The notes beneath the pieces are model-generated. The model searched no databases and was not told the DNA's origin. It worked only from the letters and a program-made list of their open reading frames with translations. A stretch of DNA of 59,039 nt from NCBI GenBank assembly GCA_021736785.1, contig JAIPFF010000032.1, positions 1-59,039 on the forward strand, read 5' to 3'. Shown here one piece after another: positions 27,718 through 30,700 of the stretch (within the stretch, counting starts at the first letter, position 1; every line of letters begins with the position of its first letter). A program made the position numbers and the translations under genes. This stretch comes from Thiohalocapsa sp. (GTDB lineage Bacteria > Pseudomonadota > Gammaproteobacteria > Chromatiales > Chromatiaceae).

Positions 27718-30700
27718 CTACTGACAGCTCTCACACTCCGGATCCAAGATCGAGCAAGCCTTCGGCCCCTCGACATCCCCCGATGGTGCTCCGGAGCCGT
27801 TCGATTTCCCCTTGTCCATGGAGACGTAGCTCCCCCCGACGGCGGACAGTCGGTTGGCCTTGGTAGAGTCGTCCATGGTGGACTTTTCGACGTGGGTGGC
27901 GCCCATGGAGCGCAGGTAGTACGTGGTCTTGAGGCCGCGTACCCAGGCCAGTTTGTAGAGGTTGTCGAGCTTCTTGCCGCTGGGCTCGCTCATGTAGAGG
28001 TTCAGGCTTTGGGCCTGGTCGAGCCATTTCTGGCGGCGGCTGCCGGCCTCGACCAGCCAGCGGGCGTCGATCTCGAAGGCGGTGGCGTAGAGCTCCTTCA
28101 GGTCGTCCGGGATGCGGTCGATCTGCTGCACGGAGCCGTCGTAGTACTTGAGGTCGTTGACCATGACCGCGTCCCACAGGCCGCGCTCCTTCAGGTCCAT
28201 GACCAGGTACGGGTTCACGACGGTGAACTCGCCGGAAAGGTTCGATTTGACGAACAGGTTCTGATACGTCGGCTCGATGGACTGGCTGACGCCGGCGATG
28301 TTGCTGATGGTCGCGGTCGGGGCGATGGCCATGCAGTTGCTGTTGCGCATGCCGACGGTGGTGACGCGCTCGCGCAGCCTGTCCCAGTTCAGCGTCGCGG
28401 ACTTGTCCATCTGCAGGTAGCCGCCGCGGCCTTCTTCCAGCCGCGCGATGCTGTCGATGGGCAGCACGCCCTGGCTCCACAGGCTGCCGTCGAAGCTCTG
28501 GTAGCGCCCGCGCTCGTCGGCCAGGTCGGTGCTGGCCTCGATGGCGTAGTAGCTCAGGGCCTCCATGCTGTGGTCGGCGAAGGTGACGGCGTCCTGGCTG
28601 GCGTAGGGGATGCGCAGCTTATAGAGCGCGTCCTGGAAGCCCATGATCCCTAAGCCAACCGGGCGATGGCGCAGGTTGGATTTGCGCGCCTGGGGCACGT
28701 TGTAGAAGTTGTAGTCGATGACGTTGTCGAGCATCCGCATGGCGGTGCCGACGGTCTTCTTGAGCTTGGCGGTGTCGAGGCCGCGCTCGGTCACGTGGTT
28801 GGCCAGGTTCACGGAGCCCAGATTGCAGACCGCGATCTCCTGATCATTGGTGTGCAGCGTGATCTCGGTGCAGAGGTTGCTGCTGTGCACCATGCCCACG
28901 TGCTGGTTGGTATAGCGCAGGTTGCACGGGTCCTTGAAGGTGATCCACGGATGCCCGGTCTCGAACAGCATCGCGAGCATCTTGCGCCACAGGTCGACGG
29001 CCTTGATTCGCTTGCCGACGCGCATTTCGCCGCGCTCGGCGCGGGCCTCGTAGGCCAGGTAGGCGTCTTCGAAGGCCTGGCCGGTGAGGTCGTGCAGGTC
29101 CGGCGTCTCGTCCGGCGAGAACAGGGTCCAGGGGCCATCCTCGGCCACGCGCTTCATGAACAGGTCCGGCACCCAGTTGGCGGTGTTCATGTCGTGGGTG
29201 CGGCGGCGGTCGTCGCCGGTGTTCTTGCGCAGGTCCAGGAACTCTTCGATGTCGACGTGCCAGGTCTCGAGATAGGCGCAGACGGCGCCCTTGCGCTTGC
29301 CGCCGTTGTGGACCAGCGCGGCGGCGGTCATGTAGCTCTCGTCGCCCTCGACCTTGAGGTCGTGCACCTCCGGCACCGGGGTGACGGACTCGACGGCCTT
29401 CACGCGCGTGAACAGCCAGTTGCCGATCCGCAGCCAGTTCTGTTTGGTGACGGCGGGCACGCCGACCAGGTCGGCGATCTGCGGCACGGCCGGGATGCGC
29501 AGATCGAAGGCGCGGGTGGCGCCGGTAAAGGCGACGACGCTGCCGTCGCTGCGCCGGCCTTCGTGGGAGGTATCGCGCACGCGGTATTGGCCCGCGCACG
29601 GGATGCCGAGACGCAGCAACTGGTAGCGCAGACCCTCCGCCAGCGGCGTGGAGGTGCTGGTGAAATAGATCTCCTTGCCGCGGCTGATGCCGCCGTCGGT
29701 TTCCAGCAGGCCCTGGATCAGCGCCAGCGCCTGGTTGTGTGGCAGGTGGCTGAAGCGGCGCGCGATGCGCTTATTGTGGGCCGCGTCGTAGAGGTCCGCC
29801 TCGCTGAAGGGCAGGGCCGATTGATCCTCGCCGACCCAGCGGCCCGTGGTCGCGCAGCGCGCAAGTCCCTTGCCGAACGACCATTTGATCTGCAGGTAGT
29901 TGTCGCCGCGTGCGGATTCCCAAAAGTGGATGCCGCGCTCGGTGAGGTAGGCGCGCACGAAATCCAGATGGCCTGCGTCGCGACTCGAGTTGCCGGAGAC
30001 GCCGAATTCATAACCCCGCGTCAGATGGCCGTCGCCGAGCAGGATGCCGTAGAAGCGCGCATCCGCCTCGGTAAAGTCCTGGACCGGCACGACTTCGGTC
30101 GGGATGACCTGGGCAGCGTAGTCGCCGCGCGCCAGTTGGCCGGCTTCGATCCAGTCCGGCTGCACCTTGCCGGCAGCGATCTGCTTCATGGTCCGCTCGA
30201 TGGACTGCTCCATCGGGACGCCCTTGATGGCCCAAAACGGGTGTCCGGCCGTGACTGTCAGGTCATTCACCGAGTGCTTGATGCGCACGCGCACCATCGG
30301 TGCGTCCTTCTGCGCATAGACGAAGTGCTCGGTGACCTCGCGGTATTGGCCGCGCTGACCCAGCACCAAGTCGCCGGGCGCGACGTCCGCGATGGACTTG
30401 GGCCCGTCGGCGGTGAAGACGGTTGTCTCCGGTGCGAAGCACTGATTCACGGCCACGGCCGTATCGTTGGCGACCTTCAGGAACGGCACCACGCCCTGGC
30501 TCTTGCCGTTGGTGCCCTTGATGTGGGCGCCCATACCGCGCACGCGGGACCAGTCGTTGCCGAGGCCACCGGCGAATTTGCTGAGCAGGGCGTTGTCTTT
30601 GATGGCGCCGTAGATGCCGTCGAGGTCGTCCGGGACGGTGGTCAGGTAGCAGGAGCTGAGCTGCGGGCGCAGGGTGCCGGAGTTGAACAGGGTCGGCGTG

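Follow-up and report, generated by a model that had tools for sequence, protein, structure and literature searches.

How an intein can be spliced when the residue that follows it is glycine is the question raised by the nrdA gene on this Thiohalocapsa sp. contig. The window (the whole stretch of 59,039 nucleotides that was analysed) carries on its reverse strand a gene for the large subunit of class I ribonucleotide reductase with an in-frame intein (27718..31815, 1365 codons plus stop, the ATG start being assumed), and the open reading frame matched the profiles NF005544 (PRK07207; 1708 bits against a cut-off of 965), PF02867, PF00317 and PF03477. The small-subunit gene, nrdB, lies on the same strand, its domain match (PF00268) extending over 23759..24622. 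The precursor, also read on the reverse strand throughout, consists of an N-extein of 458 residues (30442..31815, ATG at 31815) with the C-terminal end NDTAVAVNQ, an intein of 379 residues (29305..30441, an open frame of 379 codons) running from Cys1 (30439..30441) to Asn379 (29305..29307), and a C-extein of 528 residues plus stop codon (27718..29304) that begins with GGKRKGAV. The first C-extein codon, GGC at 29302..29304, confirms the Gly after His-Asn that had been pointed out in a sequence-only reading of this DNA. The intein boundaries, coordinates and residue counts of that reading agree with the codon positions and the open frame, as does its 986-residue spliced product (458 plus 528 residues).

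The intein interrupts the conserved motif NQ/GGKRKG of NrdA, where it separates Gln from Gly, at a point of the conserved barrel domain PF02867 near positions 66-72 of 523. The extein flanks align with the uninterrupted NrdA of the solved structure 5im3, which we take to be the P. aeruginosa enzyme, where Gln442 (...NDTAVAVNQ) is followed by Gly443 (GGKRKGAV). In a genome of the same genus (G038) the site is empty and the two NrdA matches abut within a 990-residue frame. A shifted intein boundary was ruled out, because only removal of the segment from Cys to Asn gives back the empty-site sequence NQGGKRKG; that excision regenerates this sequence had already been proposed, and it is the one found at empty sites and in 5im3. 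Within the intein we located Thr64-Ala-Gly-His67 of block B (Thr-x-x-His; 30241..30252), a LAGLIDADG homing endonuclease domain at about residues 120-300 (PF14528; 29542..30084, with approximate limits) that has both of its motifs, starting at residues 129 and 240, and a C-terminal segment from His360 to Asn379 (29305..29364) that includes Asp361, Tyr370, Thr372, His378 and Asn379 and that corresponds to blocks F and G of the intein nomenclature. An AlphaFold2 model of the intein, with 73 relatives as input, had a mean pLDDT of 89.7 and comprised Hint and LAGLIDADG parts; the closest solved folds were the PI-SceI and TliVMA inteins.

In terms of intein classes, the element has Cys1, the Thr-x-x-His of block B, the Asp of block F and the C-terminal Asn of class 1, and differs from that class in the +1 residue, which is Gly instead of Cys, Ser or Thr in the family carriers and class-wide hits described below. 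Without one of these three residues the branched-ester chemistry of standard class 1 splicing is unavailable, as the sequence-only reading held. PI-SceI, TliVMA and the other NrdA inteins, which are class 1 inteins with LAGLIDADG domains, share with it the fold, Cys1, Thr-x-x-His, Asp, His-Asn and a conserved insertion site, and differ from it at +1, which is Gly here and Thr or Cys in the other inteins read in NrdA proteins of the same groups (L122-L127). Intein insertion is stated to precede C, S or T (PMC2814812). Assignment to class 3 was rejected with Cys1 present and Asp361, not Cys, at F:4 in 73/73 aligned inteins, and assignment to class 2 with Cys1 present and no nucleophile at +1. 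A second NrdA intein, at EIAV/CNLGS in Thiofilum (L125) and in a Thiotrichaceae MAG (L126), has Cys at +1, and a different one near ...VHSSNLC (KN/TEITLH; L122, L123, L124 and L127) has Thr; the frame of L127, 1747 residues long, contains both the Thr+1 and the Gly+1 intein, and L122-L124 have a single intein. Since these neighbouring NrdA inteins have a standard +1 residue, Gly+1 is a property of one allele and not of its hosts. In a control survey of other inteins, 20 of 27 loci had a candidate junction followed by C, S or T and the remaining 7 had none; the expression used admitted C, S, T or G only and was blind to other +1 residues.

We then read the junction wherever the intein was found. 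A search with the whole precursor covered 194 family genomes, at least 185 of which had some match to the NrdA precursor. Its occurrence was patchy: among the matches listed, 36 of the 194 genomes (the window's own included) matched through the intein, and both Cys1 and Gly+1 were present in all 36, every junction being read, in a search whose query, like alignment A1, includes extein residues around the site and is not blind to the junction. Sequencing error at the junction, which the sequence-only reading had allowed for, is ruled out together with chance as the source of Gly+1 by the Asn-Gly junction in these 36 family carriers among the matches listed. A class-wide profile search of 369 genomes gave 9 strong matches (own included) with Gly+1 in 9/9, and weak matches only in 23 further genomes, which were to other inteins wherever the junction was readable. 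A junction-pattern scan of the genome collection returned 88 loci, 88/88 with the end of this intein before GGKRKGAVCAY; because the pattern fixes Asn and Gly+1, these loci show the spread of the allele and not an absence of variation at +1. Cys1 was left free by the pattern and was found in all 80 loci that reach the N-junction (the other 8 stop short), and also in 115 of 115 inteins (85 distinct) read without imposing Cys. The family, class and pattern sets overlap one another, and for L017 (family set) and L097 (pattern set) one row came from a stray frame, the true junction being the second row.

Hosts of the Gly+1 intein include Thiohalocapsa, Thiocapsa, Thiocystis, Thiothrix, Halomonas, Azotobacter vinelandii and Burkholderiales, and among actinobacteria Nocardiopsis, Kribbella and Allokutzneria. 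Five viral contigs carried the intein, with a best-segment intein identity of 32-58% and Gly+1 in 5/5, the search words being both junctions, by which Gly was imposed for contigs found by the C-side word and not for L165. The junction pattern applied to viral contigs gave five stretches, four of them in contigs already known and the fifth (L170) an unrelated protein that was discarded. Phage and plasmid records matched by the intein protein (23 and 2, respectively) were remote relatives only, all with less than 60% identity.

We aligned 73 intein rows. Thr64, His67, Asp361, Tyr370 and Thr372 were invariant in 73/73, and so were Cys1, Asn379 and Gly+1, the invariance of these three being imposed by the choice of locus and row. 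The penultimate residue was His in 66 rows, Ser in 5 and Arg in 2 (His 30, Ser 4 and Arg 2 of 36 in the family set, among the matches listed). The LAGLIDADG Asp was kept in 66/73 rows at D137 and in 63/73 at D249, and 12 of the 73 inteins had lost it at one or both positions, which points to an endonuclease that has been weakened or is dead. These Asp-deficient inteins retained Thr64, His67, Asp361 and Asn379 in 12/12 and the penultimate His in 11/12. One of the twelve, the intein of Thiothrix caldifontis (L086), whose host is among the seven carriers described below in which no other reductase was found, lacks residues 138-178, motif 1 included. Of 3741 pairs, 38 fell within the divergence limits, and in these the median dN/dS was 0.13 for the Hint part, against 0.07 for the exteins and 0.15 for the endonuclease. 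These values replace medians over 612 pairs, saturated ones among them, which had been 0.20 for exteins and between 0.34 and 0.37 for the Hint parts and the whole intein. In some pairs dS was far lower in the intein than in the exteins (0.03 against 0.28 for L046/L116, 0.04 against 0.21 for L090/L031), as would be expected after a recent transfer.

The sequence-only reading had argued that the gene cannot be dead because nrdA is essential. For the window's own genome this does not follow, because it also has a class II reductase gene (L002, an open frame; TIGR02504, 547 bits against a cut-off of 400) and a class III gene (G000:C50, an open frame); the argument does hold up in seven relatives, in which we found no other reductase. 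The PF02867 search covered 73 genome handles, of which 39 were G handles and 34 came from the 88 pattern loci. Ten were duplicates with identical coordinates, which leaves 63 distinct genomes, 60 with the Gly+1 intein. The class III model PF13597 was searched in 58 of the 63, the five left out (G060, G071, G081, G139 and G179) having further PF02867 matches; of the 58 genomes searched for both, 55 carry the Gly+1 intein and three (G031, G049 and G073) a different intein. In 8 of the 55 carriers PF02867 matched the interrupted nrdA only and PF13597 gave no match. Five of these are the isolates Thiolinea disciformis, Thiothrix lacustris, T. eikelboomii, T. caldifontis and Thiofilum flexile, and the others are G055 (94% complete), G056 (97%) and G111 (62%). 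We set G111 aside and counted 7 of 55 carriers, all draft genomes, the five named isolates being listed without a completeness figure. In each of the remaining 47 carriers we found a second gene matching PF02867, a match to the class III model, or both of these; the class III match of G218 is spread over two frames and that of G224 lies at a contig edge, and these two look damaged or incomplete. In 10 genomes, among them the 8 named above, the model of the monomeric class II enzyme, TIGR02505 (RTPR), never exceeded its cut-off (0 of 10), and NrdB was present in all 10. With no other reductase found in seven carriers and the splicing residues kept in 12/12 Asp-deficient inteins, processing of the NrdA precursor probably yields an enzyme that works.

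For the route itself, bacterial intein-like (BIL) domains offer a precedent. In the proposal for type A BILs a thioester forms at the N-end, Asn cyclises at the C-end, and the freed amine then attacks the thioester (PMC4031507). Type A BILs resemble the NrdA intein in starting with Cys1, ending in His-Asn and having no Cys, Ser or Thr at +1 (PMC4031507). They differ from it in being mostly cleaving and in their locations, which are variable regions of non-conserved proteins (PMC2814812, PMC7765530), whereas the NrdA intein carries a LAGLIDADG endonuclease and is found at a single fixed position within the conserved barrel of NrdA. Against PDB sequences the intein profile matched the gp41-1 intein (5.1e-4) and the solved BIL 2lwy (9.5e-4) about equally; 2lwy was the second best match, over the N-terminal Hint part only. 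We infer, for the ligation as for every chemical step, that the chemistry proposed for type A BILs is also the most likely splicing route of the NrdA intein, and hold this with moderate confidence. Cys1 would take the N-extein as a thioester, aided by Thr64, His67 and Asp361; Asn379 would then cyclise, cutting the C-junction and freeing the alpha-amine of Gly+1; the NrdA halves would be kept together by the Hint fold and their own packing; and the Gly amine would attack the thioester to give a Gln-Gly peptide bond. The alpha-amine of Gly is the least hindered. All residues needed for such a route are present, and since cleavage at both ends uses the same residues, their conservation is no proof of ligation. 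The literature on BILs points in several directions: cleavage predominates (PMC4031507, PMC7664689), where no nucleophilic side chain is available ligation is a minor outcome beside cleavage (PMC7664689, PMC4031507), one BIL did not splice until +1 was changed to Cys (PMC4031507), A-type BILs are said to be unable to ligate (PMC7765530), and BILs have been turned efficient by a single mutation (PMC7664689).

One viral contig bears on whether ligation takes place. In L168 (2164-5133) nrdA is split inside the Gly+1 intein, the N-part ending with the stop codon TAA at 3340-3342 and the C-part starting with ATG at 3351, 8 bases past the stop, with an AAGGA that overlaps the stop. Hint pieces are kept on either side of the break, Gly+1 is kept, and no domain match to an endonuclease was obtained in the split intein. 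L168 is possibly a natural split intein, and as Hint pieces would be dispensable if plain halves sufficed, their retention on both sides favours ligation. The split could also be a frame error in a single metagenomic contig, and it was not seen among the relatives of this gene (13 loci, one being the same contig); of the other 12 loci, 10 have the plain empty site NQGGKRKG, L185 has SQGSKRKG and L182 has no readable site.

To explain the Gly+1 junction, the sequence-only reading had listed an unusual splicing route, cleaved halves that work as a complex, and replacement by another reductase; the list was the right one, and unusual splicing is its best supported member. Were the halves merely cleaved, hydrolysis of the thioester and cyclisation of Asn would release the intein at both ends, the exteins would stay unligated, and NrdA would act as a non-covalent complex. 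We regard this as unlikely, if a real alternative: the conserved residues that it needs are identical, cleavage is the predominant outcome in BILs (PMC4031507, PMC7664689), and paired halves have to be reckoned with because an Aeromonas phage makes its NrdA from two genes, reportedly in functional form (PMC3653736). The phage genes nrdA-a and nrdA-b resemble cleaved halves in that NrdA is in two pieces with its function said to be kept, and differ in that the split is ascribed to the mobE endonuclease without a self-splicing element (PMC3653736); the title of the original paper on the split phage NrdA (from the reference list of PMC2814812) agrees, and a figure legend in PMC3653736 speaks of an intein instead. 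Against unligated halves, the split gene of L168 still carries Hint pieces to either side of the break and is not a plain two-gene NrdA. AVNQ ahead of the junction is also unchanged in 36/36 family carriers (among the matches listed), a weak argument because intein-free NrdAs mostly keep AVNQ too.

Another side chain, either an internal Ser or Thr of the intein or a downstream Lys or Cys of the extein, might replace +1 as branch point, which could account for the invariance of Thr372 and Tyr370 (73/73 rows) and would recall class 3 inteins, which carry the acyl group on an internal residue (PMC7664689). We think it improbable: the marks of class 3 are missing, with Cys1 present and Asp at F:4, and a normal Gln-Gly bond would presumably still require a final attack by the Gly amine. 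That the intein has failed in the window's genome, leaving NrdA inactive or barely active and the supply of dNTPs to the class II and class III enzymes, whose genes have open frames there, is distinctly improbable, given the open frame of the precursor, the full set of splicing residues, the low dN/dS of the intein family and the relatives with the same allele and no other reductase found. A precursor active with its intein retained is scarcely credible; no point in its support was found, the insertion breaks the conserved barrel PF02867, and the residues for excision are kept where the endonuclease is damaged.

Attack of the Gly amine on the thioester, which we prefer, can be set against earlier accounts of this site. 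In Azotobacter chroococcum and A. vinelandii the NrdA intein has been placed at aa 442-800 and assigned to LAGLIDADG-3, the accessible part of the paper making no comment on +1 (PMC4465626). It occupies the same NrdA site as the window's intein, and the copy in A. vinelandii CA (L070, L188) has the same insertion site and Gly+1. A. vinelandii encodes a single NrdA, which carries the Gly+1 intein, and a single class II reductase; neither NDTAVAV nor NQGGK was found in the region of the class II gene. The tryptic peptide spanning the Gln-Gly junction of ligated A. vinelandii NrdA would be VVNDTAVAVNQGGK, and the corresponding junction peptide of Thiothrix lacustris and T. caldifontis VANDTAVAVNQGGK. 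InBase is reported to have listed an A. vinelandii RIR1 entry as a BIL; if this is right, the missing nucleophile had been noted before. In the literature searched, which covered a minority of subscription journals, we found no description of a Gly+1 NrdA intein. What is new is probably BIL-like chemistry in a true mobile intein.

Our confidence falls a little short of even for the wider statement that a widespread class of mobile true inteins makes an essential enzyme by attack of an alpha-amine on the Cys1 thioester, without a side-chain nucleophile at +1 and with an efficiency that suffices for some bacteria whose only ribonucleotide reductase this is, and that a naturally split version which splices in trans occurs in a virus. 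Some cells that showed no other reductase seem to rely on what the Gly+1 nrdA produces, which makes the efficiency of such a ligation directly testable. If the Gly+1 intein splices well, inteins are not confined to sites before Cys, Ser or Thr, and if the alpha-amine reading is true, BIL-type chemistry is a working fourth splicing strategy.

Some further observations concern the same genes. Intein residue 368 (29338-29340, block F) is Glu in 53/73 and His in 4/73 Gly+1 inteins, and the Cys+1 intein of Thiofilum has His at the matching block F position, with the invariant Thr372 close by; Glu at 368 is possibly an adaptation to the absent nucleophile. In Chromohalobacter sp. (L043) the extein ahead of the intein reads KVVMAVNQ and is shorter than usual (KVVNDTAVAVNQ), and since another NrdA-like match in this genome (G196:C124) is uninterrupted, the nrdA of L043 may be decaying. 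G060 (4% contamination) has an intein-bearing and an intein-free nrdA (L130 and L133), which represent two copies or two strains. The NrdB match of Thiofilum flexile (G209:C1:31071-32831) is in two pieces within a 724-residue frame, and its nrdB seems to be interrupted too. Class III NrdD frames of about 1000-1110 residues were found in ten genomes (G026, G059, G073, G115, G127, G132, G143, G147, G153 and G189), and the PF13597 match is broken near position 157 in all ten, which suggests an intein there.
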